Shown here piece after piece: positions 3,402-56,319 of a stretch of 64,000 nt of DNA (its first letter is position 1; each line of letters opens with the position of its first letter). Position numbers and translations under genes: made by a program. Source of the DNA: Pyruvatibacter mobilis. Its GTDB lineage: Bacteria; Pseudomonadota; Alphaproteobacteria; CGMCC-115125. Under the pieces are notes generated by a model that was not told the DNA's origin, ran no database searches, and was given only the letters and a program-made list of their open reading frames with translations. The DNA lies in NCBI RefSeq assembly GCF_012848855.1, contig NZ_CP051630.1:62001-126000 (forward strand). The letters are read 5' to 3'.

Positions 3402-4457
3402 TCAGCGTGCCCCGGCAAGGGGCATGGATGCCGCAGCTTCGAGATCCTCAGCATCGCAGATGGCATGGACCATGGTGAGATAGGCATCGAGAAGAGCCGC
3501 CACCTCATCCGGGTAGAGCTGGAAGGCCGCCACATGCGTGCCCCAGCCGCCAGCTGCGGCCAGGAGCGGGTGGTCGTCCGCCGGATGCGGGGCCACCCAC
3601 AGGTCGATGTTGCGGTTGGCGGCCACAATCTCTTCGGCATGGATGCGGCGGTTCACAGGATCACGTTCGTCCTGGATCAGCAGGGTCGGCCGGGCATAGG
3701 TCATACCCTGGTCCTTGAGGGTCGTCTCGAATGCCGGCGCCCCGTGCAGCAGCCCGGCTGCTGTCGTGGTCACATGGGCCAGGGCCAGGGGAAACCCGGC
3801 TGCCGCGACGGTGCCGCGGGCCATGGTGTCATAGGTATCAAGCATCGGGTCGAGGAGGATAAGCCCGCGAATGCGGCTGTCCTGCGCTGCCGCTGTCAGG
3901 GCTGCCGCACCGCCCATGGAGACGCCGAAGGGGATGATCGGCTCCCCACCGCCGCGTATCTGGGCATAGTCGACAGCGGCCAGCACGTCCCTGGCTTCGG
4001 CGCGCCCCCAGTCCAGCTGTCCGCCGCCCCAGGCTTGTGACGTGCCGGAATTGCGCATGTCGATTGCAAGCACATGGTGCTGCATGCGGGTCAGCAGCTT
4101 GTAGAGGCCAAAGGCATTCACATAGGGGTCAGCGCGGTTCGAGTTGGCGCCATGGATGAAGATGATCACCCCGCGTGTCTCGATGGGCTCGCCGGTGAAC
4201 TCATCGATGCCTGCGGGCGTTGCATCGGGCATCCACCAGCCATTAATGGCCACGCCGTCTGCGGTGGTGAGGCTCACATCCTCGTAAGCTATGCCATGGT
4301 CCGCCGGGGTATCTTCGAGGGCCTCACGCTGTGCCGCCATCAGAAGTGTCGGCAAAACGCCAACCACGAGCACCAGCACCACAAGAGGAACGGCCAGCGC
4401 TGCCCCAAGCCCAATGCGTTTCCACAGCCGATTATCCGCCGTCATCCCGGCCATCAC
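3402..4457 (-). CDS. Membrane-anchored alpha/beta hydrolase
   Basis: This 351-residue protein has an N-terminal membrane anchor or signal (residues about 15-42) and then an alpha/beta hydrolase fold. The oxyanion segment is FIHGANSNR, the nucleophile elbow is GVSMGG, a probable acid lies in DERDPVN, and the base His is in WGTHVAAF. This order is that of BAAT/peptidase S9-like serine hydrolases acting on esters or peptides outside the cytoplasmic face. Two closely spaced Met codons (MMAGM) make the exact start ambiguous by a few residues. The substrate is unknown. Confidence 0.75.
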   Translation of the reverse strand: MMAGMTADNRLWKRIGLGAALAVPLVVLVLVVGVLPTLLMAAQREALEDTPADHGIAYEDVSLTTADGVAINGWWMPDATPAGIDEFTGEPIETRGVIIFIHGANSNRADPYVNAFGLYKLLTRMQHHVLAIDMRNSGTSQAWGGGQLDWGRAEARDVLAAVDYAQIRGGGEPIIPFGVSMGGAAALTAAAQDSRIRGLILLDPMLDTYDTMARGTVAAAGFPLALAHVTTTAAGLLHGAPAFETTLKDQGMTYARPTLLIQDERDPVNRRIHAEEIVAANRNIDLWVAPHPADDHPLLAAAGGWGTHVAAFQLYPDEVAALLDAYLTMVHAICDAEDLEAAASMPLAGAR

Positions 4458-15429: not shown

Positions 15430-15626
15430 CACGGCCCATGTCCGGTATGCGGATGATTGCGCGGGAGGGAGGCTAACAGCGCTTCCGCCCTGCGTCGAAT
15501 GCCGCATGGTGACGCATTGGCGGACCTAATGGCTGATTGACGCCGTTTCCCACGTCCCTATGATGCCGCTCCCTTCGTGGCGTCAATGTGATCCATCGTC
15601 TTTATGACAGATGGTGTCACGCACTA

Positions 15627-15669
15627 GCCCCTGTGGCGGAATTGGTAGACGCGGCAGACTCAAAATCTG
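15627..15669 (+). pseudogene. 5' half of the split host tRNA-Leu(CAA) gene
   Basis: The sequence begins with acceptor strand GCCCCTG, continues through the D-arm (GGAATTGGTAGAC), and ends in the anticodon arm GCAGA-CTCAAAA-TCTG. Phage DNA follows directly and contains neither a T-arm (GGTTCGA) nor the matching acceptor strand CAGGGGC. The missing 3' half is 40.6 kb away at 56265-56319. Joining 15627-15669 to 56276-56319 gives an 87-nt canonical tRNA-Leu with encoded CCA. The integrated phage therefore leaves this gene broken. Confidence 0.9.
15655..15669. other. attL core
   Basis: The 15-bp core CAGACTCAAAATCTG is identical to the attR core at 56261-56275. Its centre is the 7-base anticodon loop CTCAAAA with 4-base arms on each side. 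The left flank is host tRNA; the right flank is phage. Confidence 0.9.
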
Positions 15670-15713
15670 ACATGCTCCATTTCCCTTCGGGGAACAATCA
15701 CGAGAACTGAGGG

Positions 15714-15746
15714 AAACCCTAGGCTTTCTGCCTGGGGTTTTTCTTT
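15714..15746 (+). terminator. Rho-independent terminator between attL and the phage RNA polymerase operon
   Basis: AAACCCTAGGC and GCCTGGGGTTT form a stem around a TTTCT loop, followed by TTTTTC. It would stop transcripts entering from the host tRNA promoter at attL, and it may also limit early read-through into the RNA polymerase gene. Confidence 0.75.
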
Positions 15747-15754
15747 CCACCCTT

Positions 15755-15772
15755 TGTTCCTCTAAGGGAACA
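15755..15772. promoter_or_regulatory. Palindromic operator candidate O1
   Basis: TGTTCC-TCTAAG-GGAACA is a perfect 6+6 inverted repeat with a 6-base spacer. The same half-sites and spacing occur in the early promoter at 50589-50606, and with one change at 18510-18527. It lies upstream of the phage RNA polymerase gene. Confidence 0.6.
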
Positions 15773-15777
15773 GATTG

Positions 15778-15813
15778 TGGTGACGGAACAGCCGGTGCCG
15801 GTCACTGGTGACA
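15778..15813. other. Candidate integrase arm-type sites, left
   Basis: Two copies of an 8-base word occur here: TGGTGACG at 15778-15785 and TGGTGACA at 15806-15813. The second is preceded by GTCAC, forming an inverted repeat. Three similar words lie on the other phage flank at 56128-56166. In an excised phage they would surround the attP core, as arm-type integrase sites do. Confidence 0.35.
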
Positions 15814-15831
15814 TTAGGTTCCCCTATATGG
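15814..15831 (+). promoter_or_regulatory. Phage RNA polymerase promoter P1
   Basis: TTAGGTTCCCCTATATGG matches the eight-member family shared by this prophage and differs from the consensus near the start point (TATATG for TATAGG). It lies about 165 bases before the RNA polymerase gene, implying autogenous transcription. Confidence 0.65.
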
Positions 15832-15863
15832 ATTGCGCAGTACGCGGACGATGCCATCGGGAA

Positions 15864-15880
15864 TTAGGTTCCCCTATAGG
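15864..15880 (+). promoter_or_regulatory. Phage RNA polymerase promoter P2
   Basis: TTAGGTTCCCCTATAGG is the consensus form. The CTATAGG end parallels the initiating part of T7 promoters. It is the second promoter in front of the RNA polymerase gene. Confidence 0.75.
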
Positions 15881-15994
15881 CCTAGTCCCCCCCTGTCCGA
15901 TCCCCTCTTAGAGATCATTAAGAGAACTAAAGGTGCCCCTTAAGACCCCTTAAGGAGACCCGAAGTCGTGCCTAAAGCAGAGGAGAGAGAAGCT

Positions 15995-18508
15995 ATGGCC
16001 GAATACATCCACCCCATGAAGGACACGCAGCTTGAACTTGAGGAGGCCATGGCCGTGGCCACCCGCGACGCCTTCTATAAGGAGATCGAGGCTGCCCGTG
16101 CGGAGGGACGCGAGGCGGAGACCGGGTATGGCCGCCACATCCTCAAGCACTCAGTCCTGCCGGTGGCCGAAGCGATCACCGAATGGCTGGAGAAGGCTCA
16201 GTCGGGTCGTCCGGGGCGTAAGCACCTGGCCGTGAAGTACCTCACCCAGATCGAGGCTGACGTGGCCGCGTACCTGGCCCTCAAGGAAATCCTCGACAAG
16301 TTCACCGGGGCCGGGGCGGTCTTCACCAAGACGGCCTTGGCCATCGCCACGTCCATCGAGGATGAGCTTCGTTTCCGGAAGTTCCGGGAGGAGGCACGAG
16401 CCGATTTCGACGCCTCCCAGAAGCGCCTCAGCGCCGCCCGTGCCCAGAACCGTGAGCGCAAGAAGACGCTCCTCCGGCTCATGGCCAACCGCAACAACGT
16501 CTCATGGGACAACTGGCCCAAGCGGGACAAGCTGCATCTGGGGACCCTCCTGATCGAGATGGTCCGCAACGTGACCGGCTTCATCGAGGTCAAGCGGATG
16601 ACCGTGGGGATCAAGGAGACCCAGTACGTCATCCAGCCGACGCCGCAGGCGATCGAGTGGATCGACCGGGCCAACGCGAACCTCGAACTCATGGCCCCAA
16701 AGTATTGGCCCATGGTCTGCCCGCCGAAGCGTTGGTCCAACCCGTGGAATGGGGGTTATTGGAGCGGGTTCCTCCGCCGCATCCCCCTCGTCAAGAGTCA
16801 CAACCGGCACTATCTGGAGGAACTGGCCGAGATCGACATGCCCGAGGTCTATGACGCCATCAATGCGATGCAGGAGACCCCGTGGAAGGTGAACGGACGG
16901 GTCCTGTCGGTCCTCAAGGAGGCCCTTGAGACCAACCTGGAGATCGGCAGCCTGCCTCCGGTCGAGGACCTTGACCTCCCACCGGTCCCGGAGGACATCG
17001 ACACCAACGACGACGCCAAGAAGGAGTGGAAGAAGCGGGCGTCCCGTGTCTATGGGGAGAACCTGCGCATCCGGTCGAAGCGGATGCAGGTCCGTCGCAC
17101 GGCCCGTCTTGCCGAGCAGTTTGCGGAGTATCCGGAAGTGTTCTTCCCGTATCAGCTTGACTTCCGGGGCCGCGCCTACGCTGTCCCCCTGTTCCTCAAC
17201 CCGCAGGGTCCGGACTATGCCAAGGCTCTGCTCACCTTCGCCCATGGCAAGCCCATTGGAGACGGTCCCGGCGCTGGCTGGCTGGCCATCCACGGGGCCA
17301 ACGTCTATGGCGAGGACAAGGTATCCCTTGAGGAGCGGATCACGTGGATCGAGGATCGCTCCGCGCAGATCATGGCTGTGGACGAGGACCCTTGGGCACC
17401 AGAGTCCATTGCCTTCTGGGGGGAGGCCGACAAGCCCTGGCAGTTCCTGGCCTTCTGCTTTGAGTGGGCCGGGTATCTGCGGGAAGGCGCGTCGTTCGTC
17501 TCGTCCCTACCGGTCAATCTGGACGGCTCGTGCAACGGTCTCCAGCACTACTCGGCTGCCCTACGTGATCCGGAGGGGGGCGCTGCCGTGAACCTGATCC
17601 CATCGGAGGTCCCGCAGGACATCTATGGGCTGGTCGCGGAGAAGGCCAAGGCCGAATTGCGTCTTCTTTGTTCCCACAACGGAGCAGAAGGCGAGCCGGG
17701 GTCCCCGGAGTGGATGGCCCGCAAGCTCCTCGACTTCGGGATCAACCGGAAGGTCACGAAGAAGGCCGTCATGTGCCTGCCCTACGGGCTGACCCAGTAT
17801 TCCGCACGGGACTACATCGAGGAGGGTCTCCGCTCCATCGCGGAGCCGGGGCAATCTCCCTTCGCTCACTCCAAGGTCGTCCATGATCGGGAGATCGAGG
17901 CAGAGGGGTGGTGGGAAGCCGCCAGCTTCCTGACCCCGATTGTATGGGGGGCCATCGAGGACACCGTGCGGGGCGCTTCCGATGCCATGGAGTGGCTCCA
18001 GAAGACCGCACGGTACGGTGCCAAGGAGGGTCTCCCCATTTCGTGGACCACGCCTGACGGCTTCTATGTCGAGCAGCGCTACGCCCAGATGAAGGAGAAC
18101 CGGGTCAAGACCATCATTGACGGGGAGACCGTCAAGCTCTCCCTCCAGGAGGAACTCCCGGATATCGACCGGCGCAAGATGTCGTCGGCCATCGCTCCCA
18201 ACTGGGTCCACTCAATGGACGCCACCGCCCTGCGTCAGTTCGTTGTGCTGGCACGGGACAATGGCCTCCGCCACTTCGCTTTGGTCCACGACTCCTACGG
18301 AACCGTGGCGACTGACGTGCAGCTCATGAGTGTCTGCCTCCGGCGGGCCTTCGTGGATATGTACGAGGAGCACGATGTCCTCGCTGAGTTCCAGCAGGAG
18401 ATCGCGGCGATGTTGTCACAGGAGGATCGGAGGGAACTCCCGCCGGTCCCAGCCAAGGGCGACCTCGACATCGCACTGGTGGAGGAGTCCGACTTCTTTT
18501 TCGCCTGA
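15995..18508 (+). CDS. T7-like single-subunit DNA-directed RNA polymerase (gp1)
   Basis: An 837-residue phage RNA polymerase (T7: 883). The catalytic residues are all present: Asp in NLDGSCNGLQHYSA near residue 510 (T7 D537), Lys and Tyr in RKVTKKAVMCLPYGL near 589-597 (T7 K631, Y639), and Asp in LVHDSYGT near 766 (T7 D812). The specificity-loop region precedes SSAIAPNWVHSMD. The ATG at 15995 follows GAGGAGAGAG at good spacing; a GTG at 15968 would add nine residues. It should transcribe the middle and late operons from the GGTTCCCC promoters. It is the first gene right of attL, where an upstream terminator and operator suggest control in the lysogen. Confidence 0.97.
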   Translation: MAEYIHPMKDTQLELEEAMAVATRDAFYKEIEAARAEGREAETGYGRHILKHSVLPVAEAITEWLEKAQSGRPGRKHLAVKYLTQIEADVAAYLALKEILDKFTGAGAVFTKTALAIATSIEDELRFRKFREEARADFDASQKRLSAARAQNRERKKTLLRLMANRNNVSWDNWPKRDKLHLGTLLIEMVRNVTGFIEVKRMTVGIKETQYVIQPTPQAIEWIDRANANLELMAPKYWPMVCPPKRWSNPWNGGYWSGFLRRIPLVKSHNRHYLEELAEIDMPEVYDAINAMQETPWKVNGRVLSVLKEALETNLEIGSLPPVEDLDLPPVPEDIDTNDDAKKEWKKRASRVYGENLRIRSKRMQVRRTARLAEQFAEYPEVFFPYQLDFRGRAYAVPLFLNPQGPDYAKALLTFAHGKPIGDGPGAGWLAIHGANVYGEDKVSLEERITWIEDRSAQIMAVDEDPWAPESIAFWGEADKPWQFLAFCFEWAGYLREGASFVSSLPVNLDGSCNGLQHYSAALRDPEGGAAVNLIPSEVPQDIYGLVAEKAKAELRLLCSHNGAEGEPGSPEWMARKLLDFGINRKVTKKAVMCLPYGLTQYSARDYIEEGLRSIAEPGQSPFAHSKVVHDREIEAEGWWEAASFLTPIVWGAIEDTVRGASDAMEWLQKTARYGAKEGLPISWTTPDGFYVEQRYAQMKENRVKTIIDGETVKLSLQEELPDIDRRKMSSAIAPNWVHSMDATALRQFVVLARDNGLRHFALVHDSYGTVATDVQLMSVCLRRAFVDMYEEHDVLAEFQQEIAAMLSQEDRRELPPVPAKGDLDIALVEESDFFFA

Positions 18509-18509
18509 T

Positions 18510-18527
18510 TGTTCCCCCAGCGGAGCA
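18510..18527. promoter_or_regulatory. Palindromic operator candidate O3
   Basis: TGTTCC-CCCAGC-GGAGCA matches O1 and O2 in half-sites and 6-base spacing with one mismatch (GGAGCA for GGAACA). It lies 4 bases before phage promoter P3. Confidence 0.4.
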
Positions 18528-18531
18528 AACA

Positions 18532-18812: not shown

Positions 18813-18950
18813 ATGACTGACGAACGCTCTCCGCTCTCACGAGCAATCCACCTGTGGCGGCAGGGGCGGAGGATTCCGCTGACACTGTACGCCGAACTGG
18901 TGGAGCGCGGGTATGACGTACCCACCCTCGAACGCTTTTACACACACTGA
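18813..18950 (+). CDS. Small conserved phage protein (45 aa)
   Basis: The frame reads MTDERSPLSRAIHLWRQGRR, then IPLTLYAELVERGYDVPTLE and a short tail. Proteins of this length with the pattern LWRxGxxIPLTLxxELxxxGYDVPxLE recur in phages of proteobacteria, from general recognition; their function is unknown. It lies just after promoter P4 and before the 151-residue protein. The ribosome site is weak. Confidence 0.6.
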   Translation: MTDERSPLSRAIHLWRQGRRIPLTLYAELVERGYDVPTLERFYTH

Positions 18951-21974: not shown

Positions 21975-22223
21975 ATGACGAACCCGCGTTTGTCCCCCCT
22001 CTGCAACAAGATCGTCCGCCACATGACGCGGCGCGGTTACATCACGGCCCGCGATGCCATGCTCGACTACGGCATCACATCGGCCAGCCTGTCCCGCCGC
22101 ATCTGCGACATCGAGGAAACCGGATACATCATCCGCCGCGTCCGGACGGTCCACCCGATCAACAAGCAGCGCTACACCCGCTACTCGATCGACACCAAGG
22201 CCATGGCCCAGAAGGCGGCGTGA
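21975..22223 (+). CDS. Small helix-turn-helix protein (82 aa)
   Basis: The protein is almost all one winged-helix domain: TRRGYITARDAMLDYGITSA, then SLSRRICDIEETGYIIRRV, then a C-terminal wing (RYTRYSI). Such proteins occur in many phage replication modules, and their targets are generally unknown. GGAAAGGATAACG precedes the ATG at 21975. It is downstream of promoter P5 and its terminator. It could be a DNA-binding regulator or a replication accessory protein. Confidence 0.75.
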   Translation: MTNPRLSPLCNKIVRHMTRRGYITARDAMLDYGITSASLSRRICDIEETGYIIRRVRTVHPINKQRYTRYSIDTKAMAQKAA

Positions 22224-47959: not shown

Positions 47960-49651
47960 ATGATCTTAGACCAACTCCGGGATTTCAGGAACTTCCTCTA
48001 CCTCGTATGGAAGCACCTGTGTCTCCCCGACCCAACGCCAGTCCAGTACGACATTGCCGCATACCTCCAGCACGGCCCCGACCGAAAAATCATCGAAGCG
48101 TTCCGGGGCGTCGGCAAGTCGTGGATCACCGCCGCCTACGTGGTCTGGCGGCTCTACCTGGACCCCCATGTGAACATCCTGGTCGTATCGGCCTCCAAGG
48201 AACGCTCTGACCAGTTCTCCACCTTCGCCAAGCGGCTGATCGCTGAGATGCCGGTCCTGGCCCATCTCCGGCCCCGGCCAGGTTGCCGAGACTCCAACAT
48301 CATGTTCGACGTTGGCCCGGCCCGCGCCTCGCACTCCCCGTCCGTGAAATCGGTCGGCATCTTCGGGCAGCTTACCGGCTCCCGTGCCGACGAGATCGTT
48401 GCGGATGACGTGGAGGTCCCCAAGAACTCCGAGACCCAGGTTATGCGAGACAAGCTGGCCGAGCGTGTGAAGGAGTTCGACGCCATCATCAAACCGGACA
48501 TCGGTAAGGTGACGTATCTGGGTACTCCCCAGTGCGAGCAGTCCCTCTACAACGTCCTCCCCCAGCGTGGTTACGAAATCCGCGTGTGGCCCGCTCAGTA
48601 TCCCGACGAGAAGGTCCGACTGGCCTACGGGGATCGCTTGGCCCCCATGGTAGCCGAGGCGCTCGACCTGGGGACCGCCCAGGCCGGTATGCCGGTGGAC
48701 CCCAAGCGCTTCGATGAGGAGGACCTGGAGAAACGTAAGCTGTCCTATGGACGCTCCGGCTACTCCCTCCAGTTCATGCTGGACACCAGCCTGTCGGACG
48801 CCGACCGCTACCCGCTCCGCCTGAGAGACCTCATCGTCCGCTCGGTTGACATCGACCTGGCCCCCACCCGCGTCGTGTGGGCCGGTGATCCCGACCTGGT
48901 GATTGACGACCTCCCCAACGTGGGCCTGGCGGGCGACCGCTTCCACCGCCCCATGGCCATCTCGCGGTCCCCAGAAGGATACCCGGAACTGGCCCCGTAC
49001 ACCGGCTCGGTCATGGCGATCGACCCCTCGGGGCGTGGTAAGGACGAGACGACCTACGCCGTGACCAAGATGCTCAACGGGTCCCTGTACGTCCCTGACG
49101 TGATGGGCTTCCGTGGCGGTTACGAGGAGGATGTCCTGGTCGAGTTGGCCCAGGCTGCCAAGCGGAACAAGGTCAACTCCATCGTGATCGAGGAGAACTG
49201 GGGAGACGGCATGTTCACCCAGTTGTTCAAGCCGGTCCTCCAGCGCATCTACCCGTGCCGGATCGAGGACGGCGTGAAGCACTCGGTCCAGAAGGAGAAG
49301 CGCATCTGCGACACCCTGGAGCCGGTCATGAACGCCCACCGCCTCATCGTGGACCCGGAGGTCATCCGGAAGGACTACCAGTCCATCCAGGAGTACCCAG
49401 GGGAACGTGCCCACCACTATAGCCTGTTCCACCAGATGACCCGGATCACCCGCGATAAGGGTGCCCTGGGGCAGGACGACCGCCTCGACGCCCTCGCCAT
49501 GGCTGTCGCCTTCTGGACCGACAAGATGGCCCAGGACGCCGCCAAGAGGCAGCAGGAGCACCGTGAGGCCCTCCTCGCCCAGGAACTCCAGAAGTTCATT
49601 CAGGCAGCCGGTGGGAAAGGCCCCAGGAACCCCTCATGGGTCCGTGTGTGA
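47960..49651 (+). CDS. Terminase large subunit (T7 gp19-like DNA maturase B)
   Basis: A 563-residue packaging motor (T7: 586). The ATPase Walker A is AFRGVGKSW near residues 47-55, and the region ILVVSASKERSDQFSTF is typical of T7-type terminases. Walker B-like EIVADDVEVP follows. The nuclease Asp residues are in AIDPSGRGKDETTYAV and QDDRLDALAMAV. GPARASHSPSVKSVGIFGQL is almost shared with T7. Packages concatemers into heads and cuts at the terminal repeats. Confidence 0.97.
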   Translation: MILDQLRDFRNFLYLVWKHLCLPDPTPVQYDIAAYLQHGPDRKIIEAFRGVGKSWITAAYVVWRLYLDPHVNILVVSASKERSDQFSTFAKRLIAEMPVLAHLRPRPGCRDSNIMFDVGPARASHSPSVKSVGIFGQLTGSRADEIVADDVEVPKNSETQVMRDKLAERVKEFDAIIKPDIGKVTYLGTPQCEQSLYNVLPQRGYEIRVWPAQYPDEKVRLAYGDRLAPMVAEALDLGTAQAGMPVDPKRFDEEDLEKRKLSYGRSGYSLQFMLDTSLSDADRYPLRLRDLIVRSVDIDLAPTRVVWAGDPDLVIDDLPNVGLAGDRFHRPMAISRSPEGYPELAPYTGSVMAIDPSGRGKDETTYAVTKMLNGSLYVPDVMGFRGGYEEDVLVELAQAAKRNKVNSIVIEENWGDGMFTQLFKPVLQRIYPCRIEDGVKHSVQKEKRICDTLEPVMNAHRLIVDPEVIRKDYQSIQEYPGERAHHYSLFHQMTRITRDKGALGQDDRLDALAMAVAFWTDKMAQDAAKRQQEHREALLAQELQKFIQAAGGKGPRNPSWVRV

Positions 49652-49988: not shown

Positions 49989-50103
49989 TTTTGCCGCAAA
50001 AATTTGAGCGGGTATCATCGGATAGGCTGGCTGGAGTTTCCCCCATAGGGGGGTCCGCTGGCCCCTAGGGGATCGTGCAGGGGGCTTTGCGTCACCATCT
50101 ACC

Positions 50104-50137
50104 GTCACCATTCAGGCTAACCCATTGATTTCATTGG
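50104..50137. repeat. Imperfect direct repeat, copy 1 (genome-end region)
   Basis: Starts GTCACCATTCAGGCTAACC and ends TTTCATTGG. It matches 50525-50559 at about 28 of 35 positions with one gap. The two copies are 421 bases apart. Confidence 0.6.
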
Positions 50138-50403
50138 GTCCGGGTGAGATCGTGGATCACTCCGGTACCTATCGGGGCCAATAGGTGCCCGGCGAGTGTC
50201 CTGCGGGCCGGTCGTTTCGGGCGTCCGCGAGGCATATATGGTTTTGCTGACAGGACCACAGCCCTAGGGGACACTTACAGACCCTCTAGGACTCGCAAGG
50301 TTGCCCGCTGATAAGCGTTTAGACCCTGCCCGGTACATCACCACTGGCCAGCCTAAGGGGCACTCTAGGACTCTTTATGAGCCTCCTAGGGCCACGGGGC
50401 ATG

Positions 50404-50427
50404 ACCACCACCACCACCACCACCACC
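50404..50427. repeat. Trinucleotide repeat (ACC)8
   Basis: Eight perfect tandem ACC units in non-coding DNA near the putative virion end. Could vary in number between isolates. Confidence 0.8.
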
Positions 50428-50524
50428 GCAGGGGCCAGCCCTTGGGGGACACGCTCCGGACACGAATTGAACCGATAAGGGGACATAACCCGCCCCTCTG
50501 ACAATCCGTCTAGTGACGCTTTTC

Positions 50525-50559
50525 GTCACCATATCCGTCTAACCTGTTGTTTTCATTGG
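50525..50559. repeat. Imperfect direct repeat, copy 2 (genome-end region)
   Basis: Starts GTCACCATATCCGTCTAACC and ends TTTCATTGG, the second copy of 50104-50137. It lies 25 bases before the early promoter. Confidence 0.6.
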
Positions 50560-50583
50560 TCTAAAAAAATTTCAAAAAGGGTG

Positions 50584-50612
50584 TTGACTGTTCCGACAAG
50601 GGAACATATCTT
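50584..50612 (+). promoter_or_regulatory. Early sigma70-type promoter with embedded operator O2
   Basis: The -35 is TTGACT (50584-50589), followed by an exact 17-base spacer and -10 TATCTT (50607-50612). The spacer is occupied by the palindrome TGTTCC-GACAAG-GGAACA (50589-50606), sharing half-sites with O1 and O3. A repressor bound here would block host RNA polymerase. It is the only clear host-type promoter before ArdA and the early genes, analogous to the A promoters of T7. Confidence 0.75.
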
Positions 50613-50885
50613 TCTCAACGTCAACGGGGCGCACCGCTCCGATGACCACGGCGGAACCGCAACCGCCACGGGATAAACCAAAGCGCGGCGCGTGGCTGGC
50701 AGGAACCAGTGCGGAGTGACCGAACCAGTATCCAGAGCGGAAGCAGAAGACCTTGGGTGCGTAGGCGGGAGCGAGGGTGAGCCTCTAGGGGAAACGCTAG
50801 GGGCACGTGTCGCGGCCTAATGCCGGTCGCCTGATGATGCCCCAAGGCAGGGGCGAAACACGATCCACTTAAGGGGACAGAGATC

Positions 50886-51431
50886 ATGAGTGATTTGCGG
50901 GTCTATGTGGCTGATTTGGCTGCATATAACGAGGGCCGGTTATTAGGACGCTGGTTTGATCTGGCGGACTATGCCGGGGATGCCGAGGGCCTTAACGATG
51001 ACATTGACGCCATGTTGGCGGAGAACGGGCGCGGCGATGAATGGGCCATTCATGATTACGATGGGGCTTTCCCCTTGGAAATCCGCAGCAGCGAAAACCC
51101 GTCACTTGATGGTCTGGCGGAATATGCCGAGGCGGTGGCCGAAGTTGAGCGGGACATGGGCATGAGCGATGCAACCCGGCTGGTGGCCGCGTACCTAGAC
51201 GAGATCGGAGGCGACATCTGCAATGTGGCCCAGAACATCGCGGAGAACTACCGGGGCACTTATGACAGCCTTGCGGAGTTCGCGGAGGAACTGACCGAGG
51301 ATACGTCCGAAATCCCGGACCATCTCCAATACTACATTGACTGGGACAAGATGGGCCGGGACATGGAAATCGGCGGCGACATTACGTCCGTCAATATCGG
51401 CGGCGAGTTGCACATCTTTTGGAACCATTGA
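50886..51431 (+). CDS. ardA: Antirestriction protein ArdA
   Basis: A 181-residue highly acidic DNA mimic that blocks type I restriction enzymes. The family start is clear: RVYVADLAAYNEGRLLGRWF; it continues with EWAIHDYDGAFPLEI, and a C-terminal DHLQYYIDWDKMGRDM and GELHIFWNH, all typical of ArdA. As the first gene after the early promoter it would be made as soon as DNA enters, the job of Ocr (gp0.3) in T7. AAGGGGACAG precedes the ATG. Confidence 0.93.
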   Translation: MSDLRVYVADLAAYNEGRLLGRWFDLADYAGDAEGLNDDIDAMLAENGRGDEWAIHDYDGAFPLEIRSSENPSLDGLAEYAEAVAEVERDMGMSDATRLVAAYLDEIGGDICNVAQNIAENYRGTYDSLAEFAEELTEDTSEIPDHLQYYIDWDKMGRDMEIGGDITSVNIGGELHIFWNH

Positions 51432-51452
51432 TCCGCTAAGGGAGTAGTCACA

Positions 51453-51791
51453 ATGGGACATTATGAACGCATGTGGACATTTGAGACCGAGCGCTTCCTA
51501 GTCGCTTGGGACATAACGCCTTGCGATTATCTGGACCTGTCATGGGACGATACCGGGGAAGTCCGGGAGGGTCTGGAAAGCGGCCATTACGTGGCCTTTG
51601 ACAGTCGCGTTGCGGTGTATCTGGACGGTCAGATGATCGGCGCGGACTACTTGGGCCAGTCGATCTATGCGGACCCGGCGGACTTCCGGGACGTTGGCGG
51701 CTACTTCGGCGATATGGTCCGCGAGGCGGTGCGGGAGGCGCGGGAGGCGCTGCGGAGCCTTAAGGACATCCACGTCCGGGAGGCCGCGTGA
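51453..51791 (+). CDS. Early phage protein, unknown (112 aa)
   Basis: The protein has a patterned N-terminus (TFETERFLVAWDITPCDYLD, then LSWDDTGEVREGLESGHYVA) and a C-terminal helix (VREAVREAREALRSLKDI). Similar proteins are seen beside ArdA on plasmids and phages in my recollection, without a known function. Ribosome site CTAAGGGAGTAG. The stop overlaps the next gene. Confidence 0.65.
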   Translation: MGHYERMWTFETERFLVAWDITPCDYLDLSWDDTGEVREGLESGHYVAFDSRVAVYLDGQMIGADYLGQSIYADPADFRDVGGYFGDMVREAVREAREALRSLKDIHVREAA

Positions 51792-52192
51792 TGAAATTCG
51801 TCTATTACGAAATCCGGCCATGCGTTGAGGTCGATGGGGAAACGCGCAGCTTCCTAGGGAACACGTCCTATAACCCCGAAATCGGGGACATGGTGTACAC
51901 CCATGAGGGGGCGTATGAAGAAGCCGCCGCTGTGGCGGAGGAGCGCGGGACCGGTGTGTTCTGGACGCTCTATGGCCGGGATACAGATGGGCAGGCCACG
52001 GCCATTGGCGACTTCGCGGATTTCGACGCGGCGCTCAACGTCCTAAACGCGATCATCGCTCCAATAGCGGAAGCGCGTGACGATCTGGTCAGCCTTGCCG
52101 GTCTGACCGAGCCGGACACCGCCGACCTCTACGCCTTAGCAGGCGACCTTGACGACATCATCAACCAATCGACCACCAAAGAACGCCTTTAA
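51791..52192 (+). CDS. Early phage protein, unknown (133 aa)
   Basis: Acidic soluble protein starting MKFVYYEIRPCVEVDGETRS; the ATG overlaps the preceding stop (GTGATG; GTG 51788 also possible). The C-terminus contains a helical acidic segment (ALAGDLDDIINQSTTK). No recognised motif. The run of short acidic genes after ArdA suggests host-takeover functions, by analogy only. Confidence 0.6.
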   Translation: MKFVYYEIRPCVEVDGETRSFLGNTSYNPEIGDMVYTHEGAYEEAAAVAEERGTGVFWTLYGRDTDGQATAIGDFADFDAALNVLNAIIAPIAEARDDLVSLAGLTEPDTADLYALAGDLDDIINQSTTKERL

Positions 52193-52206
52193 TGGGAGGC
52201 ATACGG

Positions 52207-52554
52207 ATGATTAATCCAGAACCAACCACCTTTGACCTGATCGAAGCCGCCGCCTGCATTTGGGAAACGTACCTAGAGACGTTGCGGGAGGAACATGAGC
52301 GCGGCGGCGGGCCTTACACCGATTTTGTTGAGGCGCACGGCTATGCCACCACACGGGCGGCGGTCATTGATCCAGCCTTGGCCACTGCCTGTCACAAGGC
52401 CTTTGCGGAGGCGATGAACGCCGGGCGCTATGACGGCCCCTTCGATTGGGACTGGTGCCCCGAGTTTTTCGCCAAGTGCGTCCTTATGGATGCCGACACG
52501 ATCCGTCTGCGCGATGACTGGCAGGTCCGGGCGGCAGCAATCACCACCCTCTAA
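52207..52554 (+). CDS. Early phage protein, unknown (115 aa)
   Basis: Starts MINPEPTTFDLIEAAACIWE and is acidic and aromatic-rich (FDWDWCPEFF). ATG 52207 has GGGAGG 7 bases upstream; the ATG at 52192 overlapping the previous stop would add five residues but lies before the ribosome site. No family recognised. Confidence 0.6.
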   Translation: MINPEPTTFDLIEAAACIWETYLETLREEHERGGGPYTDFVEAHGYATTRAAVIDPALATACHKAFAEAMNAGRYDGPFDWDWCPEFFAKCVLMDADTIRLRDDWQVRAAAITTL

Positions 52555-52564
52555 GGAAATCACC

Positions 52565-53029
52565 ATGCAAACCGAATATGAGACCGGCGGGAGGGTCCTA
52601 ACGCTTCCGCAGGAGGCGGTGGACGCCGCTGGGGACTATGATCTGGAGGCGTTCATTAAGGGCTACCTTGACGCCCTCTTTTTCACCAACACGGGCGAGG
52701 AAGACGACGCCCTTCCGGCAGGGGCCACGGTGGACGACTTCGCGCCAGAAACGGCGGCACTGATCCGCACTGACTGCACACGCTTTGTTGCCGACCATGG
52801 GAACCTGTTGGTCATGGCGGAGCGGTGGGCCGAGGCCAAGGGCTTCACCTATACCGCCGAGCAGGCCGGGATTGACCTTTGGTTCACGCGCAACGGTCAC
52901 GGTGTGGGCTACTGGGACCGCGGCCTTGGCCCCCTAGGGGACGTTTTGGCGGACCTTTGCGGGTACGGCACTGAATACCCGCCCCTCGATCCATACGTGG
53001 GCGATGACGGCAACGTCTATTTGTTCTAA
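52565..53029 (+). CDS. Early phage protein, unknown (154 aa)
   Basis: An acidic protein with a patterned second half (FTRNGHGVGYWDRGLGPLG, then DVLADLCGYGTEYPPLDPYV). This HGVGYWDRG stretch recurs in small phage proteins of unknown role. ATG 52565 follows CTCTAAGGAAATC. No catalytic motif is evident. Confidence 0.65.
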   Translation: MQTEYETGGRVLTLPQEAVDAAGDYDLEAFIKGYLDALFFTNTGEEDDALPAGATVDDFAPETAALIRTDCTRFVADHGNLLVMAERWAEAKGFTYTAEQAGIDLWFTRNGHGVGYWDRGLGPLGDVLADLCGYGTEYPPLDPYVGDDGNVYLF

Positions 53030-53054
53030 CTGACCCTCTAAGGGAGTAATTGCA

Positions 53055-53417
53055 ATGCAGGTGTTTAGCCTGAACAACATTGGCTGGATCATCTCCGGCT
53101 GCGATGACAACGGCGGGGCGACCGCTGACCGCTACACGGTGGCATTCTTTGACGGGGACTGTCTGGGTATGAGCGATGCCCCGACGCATCCCCTAGGGGT
53201 CTCTATGTGGTGCGGCGGGGGCGTCGATCCGGCCGCTGAGACGGCCTGTAATTTCGATGACCTGCCCGACCATATCCAAGCGCACACCGTGGCCCGCCTC
53301 AACCAAGGACTGGCCGACTGGGCCGAAGGTTCCGGCCTGACGCCAGAGGAATGTGCCCGCGAGATCATCCACGAGATGACCGGCGAGTGGCCTGACCTCG
53401 CTGAATGCCGCCCTTAG
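53055..53417 (+). CDS. Early phage protein, unknown (120 aa)
   Basis: A Cys- and Gly-containing protein (NNIGWIISGCDDNGGATADR, SMWCGGGVDPAAETAC) with a helical C-terminus (LTPEECAREIIHEMTGEW). CTCTAAGGGAGTAATTG gives the ribosome site. No family recognised. Confidence 0.6.
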   Translation: MQVFSLNNIGWIISGCDDNGGATADRYTVAFFDGDCLGMSDAPTHPLGVSMWCGGGVDPAAETACNFDDLPDHIQAHTVARLNQGLADWAEGSGLTPEECAREIIHEMTGEWPDLAECRP

Positions 53418-53451
53418 TGCGTCCTGACTGATCCGAGAAAGGAACAATCCC

Positions 53452-53760
53452 ATGACCATAAAACTCACCCTACGCACCATCGGCGGGGAAGCCACCGTGG
53501 ACGCTTACGAGCATGGTGATTTCTTTGCGATCCACCGAAGCCTCTTGGCCAAGTCGTGGTGGACCCTGACCCATATCCCAACGGGTATGCGGTGCGGGCC
53601 TGACCGGCGGACCAAGCGGGAATGCCGGGAGATCGGGGACATGCTCACCGCCTCCGGTGTCGATTGGTCCCATGAGGAATACGAGAAGCTGACCGGGCAG
53701 GACGCCTTTTTGGAAGCCGCCCGGAAGATCAGCAACTGGCCGACACGGGGGCGGGCATGA
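53452..53760 (+). CDS. Early phage protein, unknown (102 aa)
   Basis: Starts MTIKLTLRTIGGEATVDAYE; the following part, FFAIHRSLLAKSWWTLTHIP, GMRCGPDRRTKRECREIGDM, is rich in basic and aromatic residues, unlike its acidic neighbours. GAGAAAGGAACAATCCC precedes the ATG. Unknown function; the pattern could suit a small nucleic acid-binding protein. Confidence 0.6.
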   Translation: MTIKLTLRTIGGEATVDAYEHGDFFAIHRSLLAKSWWTLTHIPTGMRCGPDRRTKRECREIGDMLTASGVDWSHEEYEKLTGQDAFLEAARKISNWPTRGRA

Positions 53761-53849
53761 GAAAGGACCGCTTCCGCCGCCTAAAGAATTGCGACACCCC
53801 CCTCTCGCTCAATGGAGGCTCACGACCGTGGGAATGTTTGACACCGTAA
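53757..53849 (+). CDS. Possible very small basic protein (30 aa)
   Basis: The ATG overlaps the previous stop (ATGA). It reads MRKDRFRRLKNCDTPLSLNG and ends soon after. The frame is coupled by overlap but overlaps the next gene's start, so it may be only a coupling peptide or chance. Confidence 0.3.
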   Translation: MRKDRFRRLKNCDTPLSLNGGSRPWECLTP

Positions 53850-54100
53850 CCGCCCGCTGCCCGGAGTGCGGTGGGAAAATCGAATGGCAGTCCAAGGCCG
53901 GGGAGTGCTGCTTGGTCTCCTATGACGCCCGCGCCGTCCCGGCGTCCATCGCGGAGGACCTAGATGGCGCCTACTCCAGATGCCCGGAGTGCGGCGAGGA
54001 CGTTGAGTTGAGGCAGGTCACGGCCCCCGCTCGGGTCCCTATGTACGCGGTGACGCTGGGCGGGACCGTTGACCCGAACGCCGGGGAGGATTGGATTTGA
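53828..54100 (+). CDS. Zinc-ribbon early phage protein (90 aa)
   Basis: GTG 53828 with GGAGG 9 bases upstream (an ATG two codons on also possible). Two CPECG knuckles (ARCPECGGKIEW and SRCPECGEDVEL) about 46 residues apart should bind one zinc ion. Small phage zinc ribbons often contact RNA polymerase or nucleic acid, but the partner here is unknown. The stop overlaps the next small gene. Confidence 0.7.
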   Translation: MGMFDTVTARCPECGGKIEWQSKAGECCLVSYDARAVPASIAEDLDGAYSRCPECGEDVELRQVTAPARVPMYAVTLGGTVDPNAGEDWI

Positions 54101-54198
54101 AGCGCCTAATCCTCGACGCCTTGGGCGGGGTCATCTTCGCAGGCTCCGCCTTCACCCTTGTAATCATCTTCATGCTGACTATCGGAGGAGTAGCGTGA
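54097..54198 (+). CDS. Tiny single-helix membrane protein (33 aa)
   Basis: TTG 54097 overlaps the previous stop, with GGGGAGGA 7 bases upstream. It reads MKRLILDALGGVIFAGSAFT and continues as one hydrophobic helix. The stop overlaps the next ATG by one base. The strong ribosome site and coupling support a real gene. Confidence 0.5.
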   Translation: MKRLILDALGGVIFAGSAFTLVIIFMLTIGGVA

Positions 54199-54365
54199 TG
54201 GAAACATTGCTGATGACAGCCGCCTGCATGGCGCTCGCGGTGAGTGCGATGGTCGTGGGCGTTGCAACCATGAGTGTTCTCACCACAATCGCGGAGAACT
54301 GTGCGGCGTTCTGTCGCAAAACCTATAGGAGGCTGGCCGGAAAGCGCCCCGCTAAAGCCCCATAA
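54198..54365 (+). CDS. Small single-helix membrane protein (55 aa)
   Basis: ATG 54198 after GGAGGAGTAGCG. The hydrophobic part spans about residues 5-32 (MTAACMALAVSAMVVGVATM), and the tail is basic (RKTYRRLAGKRPAKAP). It lies at the end of the early operon. Unknown; small early membrane proteins can act on host membrane functions. Confidence 0.5.
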   Translation: METLLMTAACMALAVSAMVVGVATMSVLTTIAENCAAFCRKTYRRLAGKRPAKAP

Positions 54366-54441
54366 CGCAGGACCACCCCGTCTCTGGCGGGTCTCGAAAC
54401 ACCCTTATGTCTCGCCGGGAGTTGCCCAGCGGCGGTGTCGA

Positions 54442-54456
54442 TCCGAAAATATCGGA
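54442..54456. promoter_or_regulatory. Palindrome upstream of the regulator-integrase genes
   Basis: TCCGA-AAATA-TCGGA is a perfect inverted repeat about 70 bases before the gene at 54514. A -10-like TAAAAT at 54495-54500 lies between them without a clear -35. May be part of a lysogeny promoter for regulator and integrase. Confidence 0.35.
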
Positions 54457-54513
54457 AACGGCGAGTCGCCTCCCGGTTCCCCCCGAAACCTATGTAAAAT
54501 AGAGGGTATTTAC

Positions 54514-54768
54514 GTGAAGTTACTGCGTTTTTGGTATGTCCGCATTGCTCCTTCGTGGGAACTGTATGTAGAGTTCACACGCGGGGACGGTAATGGTCAC
54601 AGGAAGTTCTTTGAGACCGCCCGTGACGCAGGCGAGCTGCACATCTGGATCGGCCAGATGAAGCTCGAAATTTGCAAGTCAGTGCAGAGAGATAGAGGAA
54701 AAAATGGCATCTCAAACCCCTCAGCGAGCCAGCAAGCGAACGATTGGCCGCTTGATAAATACGATTGA
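54514..54768 (+). CDS. Hypothetical protein overlapping the regulator (84 aa)
   Basis: GTG 54514 after GAGGG. It reads KLLRFWYVRIAPSWELYVEF and TRGDGNGHRKFFETARDAGE, a beta-rich pattern. It overlaps the winged-helix gene by 65 bases in another frame. Plausible as first gene of the lysogeny operon; no family recognised. Confidence 0.5.
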   Translation: MKLLRFWYVRIAPSWELYVEFTRGDGNGHRKFFETARDAGELHIWIGQMKLEICKSVQRDRGKNGISNPSASQQANDWPLDKYD

Positions 54769-55063
54769 GGCGTTCCGCGTATTGGAACCCGACATTCAGG
54801 CCCAGACCATCATGACATTCCTCATGGCGGCCCGGAAAGAAGGCGTCGGCATGAGAGAGATGCAGGATCACCTAGGCGTTGCCCGCTCCACCATGAGCCG
54901 CAACGTGGGCATCCTGTCATCCACCGGATACCGGAAGGGCGTTCCCGGCTTCGGCCTGATCGAAGCGCGGGAGGACCCCGAGGATCGCAAGGCCAAGCAG
55001 GTTTACCTGACGCCGAAGGGGCGTCGGTTCCTGGAGAACCTCTTGTCACAAGGAGCAGATTGA
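54704..55063 (+). CDS. Winged-helix (MarR-like) regulator, candidate lysogeny repressor
   Basis: A 119-residue DNA-binding protein. The helix-turn-helix is GVGMREMQDHLGVARSTMSR and the wing is FGLIEAREDPEDRKAKQVYL, followed by TPKGRRFLENL, the MarR-like order. It lies directly before the integrase gene. A dimer of this type would bind a palindrome such as TGTTCC-N6-GGAACA in the early promoter; this pairing is an inference. No other repressor candidate is seen except the 82-residue HTH at 21975. Confidence 0.8.
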   Translation: MASQTPQRASKRTIGRLINTIEAFRVLEPDIQAQTIMTFLMAARKEGVGMREMQDHLGVARSTMSRNVGILSSTGYRKGVPGFGLIEAREDPEDRKAKQVYLTPKGRRFLENLLSQGAD

Positions 55064-55064
55064 T

Positions 55065-56126
55065 ATGGCAGTAAGACGAAAGGGGACGAAGTGGCAGGCG
55101 GACGTGACCGTCAAAGGCCAGCGCCTCCCCCGCTACTCCTTCAACACCGAGGAGGAGGCCAAGGCATGGGAAATGGAAGCCCGTGCCGCCGCGATCCTCG
55201 GGAAGCCTATCCCGGTCCCCGACGATGCACCGATCCGTGGGGGCAAGAAGCCCCGGCGGGTCGGCGGGCCGTGGACGCTGGAGCAGGCATTCCGGGAGAC
55301 ACATACCAAATACTGGAAGGGCACCGCTCACGGGCGGAAGCAGACCCACAACATCCGGCAGATTGAGGAGTTCTTTGGGCCGCACCTGCCGGTGACTGAG
55401 ATCGGGACCGAGGAGATCGAGGCATTCGTTGCTGCCTGCATCGAGAAGGGCAATAGCGGGAGCACGATCAACCGCAAGCTGTCCTGCCTGTCCAAGGCGC
55501 TCAATCTGGCTCAGACCCGTGGCCACTTGACGGTCCTGCCCAAGATCGAACGGGCGAAGGAGAACCAAGGCCGCATACGCTGGTTGAGTGACGCCGAGGA
55601 GCAGGCATTCCATCACTACTTCGGCCTGTGGGGCGACCAAGACCGACTGGACGCCTTTGTGTGCCTGATAGACACCGGCTTCCGTCCGTCCGAGTTGTGG
55701 ACGCTCGAAGCCCGCGACATCAACTTCGGCCTCGGGATGATTACCCTCTGGGAGAACAAGACCAACTGGCCCCGGTCGATCCACATGACAGGCCGGGTCA
55801 AGGAGGTCCTGCTCCGCCGCACCGATGGCGGGCGGCATGGTCCCTTTGACTTCGGCCTCTCCACGGAGGAGATGGGCCGGTGGTTCCTGTACGGATGGGA
55901 TCGGGTCCGCGCCGAGTTGGGTCTGTCAGATGACCCGCAGTTCGTACCGTATGCCTTGCGGCATACTTGCTGTTCCCGCCTTATCCAGCGGGGCGTTGAT
56001 CTGGTACGGGTCAAGGAATGGATGGGCCACAAGACTACCCAGACAACCATGCGCTACGCTCACCTTGCGCCCAAGCACCTGGCCTCGCTTGTGGACGCCC
56101 TTGAGCAGCCCCGCGAAGTCGCGTAG
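55065..56126 (+). CDS. int: Tyrosine-type integrase
   Basis: A 353-residue site-specific recombinase with the full catalytic set: Arg207 (GFRPSE), Lys232 (ENKTNW), His300 and Arg305 (LRHTCCSR), His322 (MGHKTT) and the nucleophile Tyr331 (MRYAHL). The N-terminus is an arm-binding-like domain (VRRKGTKWQADVTVKGQRLP) and the middle a core-binding helical domain from about residue 70. It starts 1 base after the regulator stop and lies 135 bases from attR, as usual for a phage integrase. It should catalyse insertion into the tRNA-Leu anticodon loop. Confidence 0.96.
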   Translation: MAVRRKGTKWQADVTVKGQRLPRYSFNTEEEAKAWEMEARAAAILGKPIPVPDDAPIRGGKKPRRVGGPWTLEQAFRETHTKYWKGTAHGRKQTHNIRQIEEFFGPHLPVTEIGTEEIEAFVAACIEKGNSGSTINRKLSCLSKALNLAQTRGHLTVLPKIERAKENQGRIRWLSDAEEQAFHHYFGLWGDQDRLDAFVCLIDTGFRPSELWTLEARDINFGLGMITLWENKTNWPRSIHMTGRVKEVLLRRTDGGRHGPFDFGLSTEEMGRWFLYGWDRVRAELGLSDDPQFVPYALRHTCCSRLIQRGVDLVRVKEWMGHKTTQTTMRYAHLAPKHLASLVDALEQPREVA

Positions 56127-56127
56127 G

Positions 56128-56166
56128 TAGTGACGCCACTGGTGACGTGACCCGTAGCTGGTGACG
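56128..56166. other. Candidate integrase arm-type sites, right
   Basis: Three direct copies of an 8-base word lie here: TAGTGACG (56128-56135), TGGTGACG (56140-56147) and TGGTGACG (56159-56166), between the integrase gene and the phage tRNA. Matching words occur on the left phage flank. Their binding by the integrase is an inference. Confidence 0.4.
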
Positions 56167-56253
56167 CGGAAGTGGTGGAATTGGCAGACACGGCGGACTC
56201 AAAATCCGCTGCCCTTCAAAGGCTTGCGGGTTCGAGTCCCGCCTTCCGCACCA
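56166..56253 (+). tRNA. Phage-carried tRNA-Leu(CAA)
   Basis: A complete cloverleaf: acceptor GCGGAAG/CTTCCGC, D-arm GGAATTGGCAGAC, anticodon arm GCGGA-CTCAAAA-TCCGC with anticodon CAA, long variable arm TGCCC-TTCAA-AGGCTT region, T-arm GCGGG-TTCGAGT-CCCGC, discriminator A and encoded CCA. It reads UUG codons. The long variable arm and A73 are leucine identity features. It differs from the split host tRNA (acceptor GCCCCTG), so it was not made by duplication of the target. It lies 8 bases inside attR and can replace the tRNA that insertion destroys. Confidence 0.95.
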
Positions 56254-56260
56254 AGCATCT

Positions 56261-56275
56261 CAGACTCAAAATCTG
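56261..56275. other. attR core
   Basis: CAGACTCAAAATCTG, identical to 15655-15669. Left flank phage (AAGCATCT), right flank host tRNA 3' half. Combined phage flanks give attP GCATCTCAGA-CTCAAAA-TCTGACATGC, an inverted repeat with one mismatch. Confidence 0.9.
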
Positions 56276-56319
56276 CTGGGGGTAACTCCGTGCTGGTTCG
56301 AGTCCGGCCAGGGGCACCA
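56265..56319 (+). pseudogene. 3' half of the split host tRNA-Leu(CAA) gene
   Basis: From the anticodon loop it continues TCTGC, a variable arm (TGGGGGTAACTCCGTG), the T-arm GCTGG-TTCGAGT-CCGGC, acceptor CAGGGGC, and ACCA. The upstream phage sequence lacks a D-arm and the GCCCCTG strand, so no functional tRNA is formed here. Its partner is 15627-15669. Confidence 0.9.

Follow-up and report, generated by a model that had tools for sequence, protein, structure and literature searches.

Bacteriophage T7 is the textbook lytic phage. For temperate T7-like phages, a lysogeny switch based on a MarR-like regulator has already been proposed in the study of LUZ100, in which the starts of P1 and P2 were mapped experimentally by ONT-cappable-seq, and a mapped but non-canonical promoter, P3, was placed ahead of the MarR-like gene (PMC10134795). 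That regulator is proposed to repress the phage RNA polymerase (RNAP) through sites upstream of the RNAP gene, which the paper credits to an earlier publication, its reference 14; the word "operator" was not found in the paper (PMC10134795). Cyanophage P-SSP7 encodes a MarR-type protein, pMarR (gp0.7), which binds DNA as a dimer and in which S66, R67 and G106 contribute to dimerisation and to the binding of Ca2+ and DNA (PMC9692554). In the Cluster A mycobacteriophages L5, Bxb1 and Trixie, one repressor acts at a promoter operator and at dispersed intergenic sites, the stoperators, which block elongation and whose sequence diverges along with the repressor (PMC6550527). The tRNA-dependent lysogeny of Fionnbharth and other mycobacteriophages combines a short att core in a host tRNA gene, which integration leaves broken, with a phage tRNA of the same isotype (PMC10865867).

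The window, by which we mean the whole 64,000-nucleotide stretch of DNA analysed, contains a temperate T7-like prophage (Table 1) with a T7-type RNAP, its own promoter set, and an integrase with attL and attR sharing the 15-bp core CAGACTCAAAATCTG. The 87-bp host tRNA-Leu gene that is split in this genome is intact in three congeners (intact attB). Along the chromosome, the left end runs from the host tRNA promoter through attL, the terminator, operator U, the two phage promoters, the RNAP gene and operator D to the phage promoter at 18531. The right end runs from a large ORF (47960-49651), known only by its position where terminase usually stands, through the early promoter with operator E, ArdA, the early genes, the MarR-like gene, integrase and tRNA-Leu to attR. 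The phage-RNAP promoter has eight matches (0.03 expected), those beyond the RNAP gene lying at 18531, 18775, 21842, 28180, 29062 and 49654. In the circular phage form the early region runs straight into the RNAP gene, and because the att site lies between int and RNAP, integration parts the early promoter from the RNAP gene and places the host tRNA promoter before it. Once integrated, the host tRNA-Leu promoter faces the phage RNAP gene with the strong terminator and operator U in between, and we infer that these two elements guard the RNAP gene from read-through.

Table 1. Features of the prophage and its borders, numbered from the first letter of the window
Feature	Coordinates	Strand	Basis
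Host promoter of split tRNA-Leu, TTGACG-16-TATGAT	15537..15564	+	10/12 match
attL core, in 5' half of split host tRNA-Leu (15627-15669)	15655..15669	+	comparison with congeners
Intrinsic terminator between attL and operator U	15709..15745	+	stem of 16 bp (-25.6 kcal/mol, z -3.6); 3' arm and tail rich in T
Operator U (putative), perfect dyad TGTTCC-TCTAAG-GGAACA, past attL and the terminator and ahead of the RNAP gene's phage promoters	15755..15772	.	blind-motif rank 7/40,677
Two phage-RNAP promoters ahead of RNAP gene	15813-15829, 15863-15879	+	promoter-motif matches
T7-type single-subunit RNA polymerase	15968..18508	+	phrog_414, E 2.7e-267
Operator D (putative), one-mismatch dyad TGTTCC-CCCAGC-GGAGCA	18510..18527	.	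blind-motif rank 8/40,677
Early host promoter, sigma70-type, TTGACT-17-TATCTT	50584..50612	+	sequence; top promoter-like match within 50000-54703 (9/12)
Operator E (putative), perfect dyad TGTTCC-GACAAG-GGAACA filling the promoter spacer	50589..50606	.	sequence, rarity, blind-motif rank 25/40,677
MarR-family winged-helix regulator, 119 aa, inferred lysogeny repressor	54704..55063	+	phrog_9665, AlphaFold2, MarR structural match, family alignment
Tyrosine integrase, directly 3' of regulator	55065..56126	+	sequence
Complete phage-borne tRNA-Leu (CAA), could replace split host gene	56166..56253	+	sequence
attR core; host tRNA-Leu 3' part = 56261-56319	56261..56275	+	comparison with congeners

The early promoter consists of TTGACT (50584-50589), a 17-bp spacer (50590-50606) and TATCTT (50607-50612); the first base of operator E is the last base of the -35, and its final base abuts the -10. 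Operator D begins 2 bp past the RNAP stop codon and ends 3 bp short of a phage promoter. The sequence-only reading had described a good sigma70 promoter whose spacer is filled by a palindrome of the lysogeny-operator type, the same palindrome with a different centre at 15755-15772 and a one-mismatch copy before a phage promoter. The promoter and its palindrome proved exact to the base, the second copy is perfect, the mismatched copy stands where it was placed, and the operator interpretation gains support from spacer-filling sites in the early promoters of other temperate T7-like phages and from equivalent sites in their int-RNAP gaps and past their RNAP stops. Its caution over a further match at 17669-17686 was well placed, since this lies inside the RNAP gene and is treated as probably chance rather than as an operator.

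In the window, TGTTCC-N6-GGAACA is perfect only in operators U and E and has one mismatch at 17669, 18510 and 53429; with up to two mismatches there are 14 matches against 2.2 expected from shuffles, and 0 of 100 shuffles reached 14. Across the whole genome (3,333,914 bp), U and E are the only perfect copies; allowing a single mismatch gives 12 places in all, 5 of them inside the ~41-kb prophage. We rejected the notion that every match with up to two mismatches is an operator, several being a stop codon plus ribosome-binding sequence; the weaker matches at 18948, 24274, 47942 and 53429 fall in such gene-boundary sequence (stop + TCC...AAGGA...ATG). TCC-N6/7-GGA sequences resembling TGATCCGCTAAGGGAGTA stand at the gene boundaries 50862, 51429, 52540, 53031, 53429, 18948, 24274 and 47942, most of which belong to the early region; these sequences overlap the ribosome-binding site and are possibly weak stoperator-like sites or merely ribosome-binding sites.

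The regulator encoded at 54704 sits immediately upstream of int, and candidate operator dyads lie at the lytic promoters. Its AlphaFold2 model (pLDDT 90.2, pTM 0.82) has MarR 3bpx as best structural match (Z 13.2, rmsd 5.2 over 108 residues), the list of structural matches also holds several MarR-operator complexes, and a profile search against the PDB likewise matches MarR regulators. A 26-member family alignment shows conservation of S65-R66, the recognition-helix pair, and of G106; judged from the motif rather than from an alignment, these would correspond to S66, R67 and G106 of pMarR. The sequence-only reading had named this winged-helix protein the best repressor candidate, a choice that the co-variation described below favours. 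No clear or consensus promoter was found just upstream of the gene, which counts against the repressor reading, as a repressor would have to be produced while the early promoter is off. The regulator was not found in the other genomes of the genus (four genomes of the genus searched), an RNAP search of 385 genomes of the class returned only two weak matches, and a contig scan for close relatives of the prophage only two distant partial matches.

MarR-like relatives adjoin the integrase in many temperate T7-like phages, and the MarR-int-RNAP module is conserved by sequence in Pelagibacter phages, T7-like cyanophages, LUZ100 and Lo5R7ANS, and by gene order in Pasto. An unbiased dyad search showed that several of these relatives each have a dyad family of their own at the equivalent places, namely the early-promoter spacer, the int-RNAP gap and just past the RNAP stop. 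In Pasto the dyad AGTCAC-N6-GTGACT occurs at 551 within the early promoter, where it fills the spacer (TTGCATT[AGTCACTCAAGGGGGACT]ATCTT), twice ahead of RNAP (8767 and 8867) and once behind it (11855). In LUZ100, TATCCACCAGCGCATA occupies the spacers of P1 (377; TTGACA-TCC[TATCCACCAGCGCATA]AGAT) and P2 (578), with near-copies at 3940 and 6690, the latter after RNAP; the sites in P1, in P2 and after RNAP are absent from the description in the LUZ100 paper. The early promoter of RHEph01 also has a spacer-filling site (TTTACA-TTCA[ATTCACCAGTGCAT]ATATG), as do loci L053/L191 and L070, and RHEph01, HTVC200P and HTVC119P have a like pattern with ATTCAC-N2-GTGAAT or TTACAC-N2-GTGTAA. The promoter scan of the AT-rich Pelagibacter phages was too noisy to place early-promoter operators.

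A dyad equivalent to U and D, common to the gap between int and RNAP and to the first 60 bp past the RNAP gene, was found at p<0.05 in 32 of 69 loci against 3.5 expected from random windows of the same locus, a binomial comparison that overstates independence since the loci are partly related. In non-redundant sets, a dyad with at least 5 of 6 arm pairs lies within 26 bp past the RNAP stop in 15/26 MarR-plus loci and in 1/26 MarR-minus loci (Fisher p = 2e-5); several MarR-plus loci have no recognisable site D. As a blind test, a symmetric motif (ATCCACTAGTGGAT) was fitted solely to sites that other phages carry behind RNAP; it places U, D and E 7th, 8th and 25th among 40,677 prophage positions. 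Its two top matches, 33911 and 51431, are at gene ends, and 51431 and other early gene starts bear TCCNCTAAGGGAG, which is either a ribosome-binding sequence or a stoperator-like layer. Across 34 non-redundant phages, the more alike the MarR proteins are, the more alike are the 22 bp that succeed RNAP (rho 0.42); with RNAP controlled the partial correlation is 0.35 (permutation p 0.0005 to 0.002), and with MarR controlled the correlation is -0.03 for RNAP and -0.02 for integrase. No co-variation was seen in five control windows: the 3' end of RNAP, one behind int, one ahead of RNAP and two lying further downstream. This comparison ties the post-RNAP site to the MarR-like regulator rather than to the polymerase or the integrase.

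Sequence alone establishes the three sites, the arrangement of the prophage, its recurrence in relatives and the co-variation of site D with the MarR-like protein. These lead us to propose that the 54704 protein is very probably a lysogeny repressor, acting through E as operator of the early promoter, with U and D restraining the phage RNAP; that the protein dimerises, binds and represses, and what each site does, is what we infer from them. The protein would bind E as a dimer lodged between the -35 and the -10, and occupation of E would keep host RNA polymerase off the early promoter. The other two operators would act on the phage RNA polymerase side: U follows the attL terminator and precedes the RNAP gene's phage promoters, and D separates the RNAP stop from the first middle phage promoter. 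Together they would stop leaked phage RNAP from starting its autocatalytic loop. More tentatively, and with rather less than even confidence, temperate T7-like phages may share a hitherto undescribed three-point lock (early-promoter spacer, int-RNAP gap, post-RNAP) that is tied to integration and co-evolves with the MarR-like repressor, with stoperator-like sites at early gene boundaries in some members.

The MarR-like protein might instead bind these sites but time the lytic cycle, by early-gene shut-off, or activate promoters, and so have no part in the upkeep of lysogeny. Such a role, the main rival to repression, is suggested by pMarR of P-SSP7, the one relative studied biochemically, which was reported to contact the alpha subunit of RNAP and to activate the promoter of host rne (PMC9692554), and by the T7-like cyanophages, which bear the module yet gave no stable lysogens. 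We consider it unlikely, since the phage here is a stable, bounded prophage that needs silencing, a site filling the -35/-10 spacer suits occlusion more than activation, and in P-SSP7 the next gene begins at the RNAP stop codon, so that the site-D gap is absent there. That the sites serve another regulator, either a host protein or the HTH_39-domain protein encoded at 21975, with 54704 not the binder, is quite improbable: a second winged-helix gene is indeed present and binding by 54704 is a prediction, but perfect copies are absent from the rest of the host genome, and the site-D sequence tracks the MarR-like protein after control for RNAP and integrase. The 21975 protein in particular is an unlikely lysogeny repressor because its relatives occur in SIO1 (Siovirus), ICBM and P12053L-type roseophages, which are known as lytic phages.

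Several weaker copies of the dyad overlap ribosome-binding sites, and integrase arm sites would be expected close to attL. The dyads are nevertheless very unlikely to be arm sites or to act in RNA, whether as ribosome-binding sites, as terminators or as hairpins of the RNase III type, given that the site at 50589 is upstream of the transcript start and hence absent from that RNA, that 15755 is ~200 bp from the RNAP start, and that the early-promoter site is ~5.7 kb from attR; integrase arm sites were rejected as an explanation because the partial correlations leave no link to integrase when MarR is taken into account. Any 64 kb will hold many short dyads, but chance is hardly credible as the source of these: in none of 20,000 first-order Markov resamples did the early leader share a perfect 6-bp dyad of equal gap (0-10) with the int-RNAP gap, and the 69 loci, the MarR-plus/minus contrast, the blind motif, the early-promoter scan of other loci and the co-variation all speak against it.

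Other features lie near the early promoter. Between it and ardA is a hammerhead ribozyme-like RNA (50804-50864, + strand; 27.9 bits, E 0.0019, under the gathering score). It shows three stems, the cores CUGAUGA and GAAA, and GUC as cleavage triplet. Outside the window the positions are L031 658-715 and L096 near 5921; RHEph01 has one at the equivalent early position (29.3 bits), and a hammerhead descriptor search of ~4 Mb on both strands gave matches only in the window and in one Pelagibacter-phage-like contig. The imperfect direct repeats TCAGGCTAACCCATTGATTTCATTGG / GCTTTGCGTCACCAT (50112-50137 and 50534-50559; 50084-50098 and 50518-50532), spaced by 422-434 bp, fall where the late genes give way to the early promoter and are perhaps at the packaging end or terminal repeat. 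A CAC-repeat run, accaccaccaccaccaccaccgc, lies ahead of the early promoter at 50405-50428.

The prophage resembles LUZ100 in having a MarR-like gene beside the integrase and upstream of a T7-type RNAP, a phage promoter and terminator between int and RNAP, and a regulator proposed to repress RNAP via sites upstream of it; the published scheme lacks the site filling the early host promoter spacer and the site past the RNAP stop, for both of which LUZ100 itself has the matching sites given above. Reference 14 of the LUZ100 paper is presumably the Autographiviridae origins paper of Boeckman et al. The 54704 protein is homologous to pMarR (32.5% identity over 113 aa), likewise stands beside integrase and RNAP, and may likewise bind DNA as a dimer, whereas pMarR is reported as a host rne activator and P-SSP7 is not known to make stable lysogens. 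As in Cluster A, a single repressor would serve a promoter operator and dispersed sites that diverge with it. Several motif matches lie at gene boundaries here, where they overlap ribosome-binding sites. The Cluster A repressor appears unrelated to 54704, which was placed by its MarR fold; the sites there are 13-mers without symmetry, and elongation blocking, a property of stoperators there, is only putative here. The host tRNA split within the anticodon arm at the short (15-bp) core, together with a complete tRNA-Leu(CAA) of the same isotype supplied by the prophage, points to apparent tRNA-dependent lysogeny like that of Fionnbharth, with the difference that the tRNA is tRNA-Leu, the prophage is T7-like and the need for the phage tRNA is putative. 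Genes for tRNA-Leu are likewise found close to int in Pasto, LUZ100, Lo5R7ANS and a Limnohabitans phage, and tRNA genes adjoin int in RHEph01 and RHEph21.

The sequence-only reading had considered a repressor circuit layered on a T7-type programme notable in itself; its operator interpretation is supported, but the combination of a temperate T7-type phage with a MarR-like regulator was already published (PMC10134795 and work cited there). In the open literature searched we found no account of operators that fill the early-promoter spacer or follow the RNAP gene, nor of such operators varying together with the regulator, and the site layout and co-variation appear to be new. How the autocatalytic RNAP is silenced in temperate T7 relatives is listed as unresolved by the LUZ100 authors (PMC10134795). 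The present analysis offers named operator sites, a named candidate repressor and, from the comparison, a rule for predicting operators in many further phages, which make this question directly testable by footprinting and reporters, and which help to judge whether T7-like phages proposed for therapy retain a lysogeny switch.
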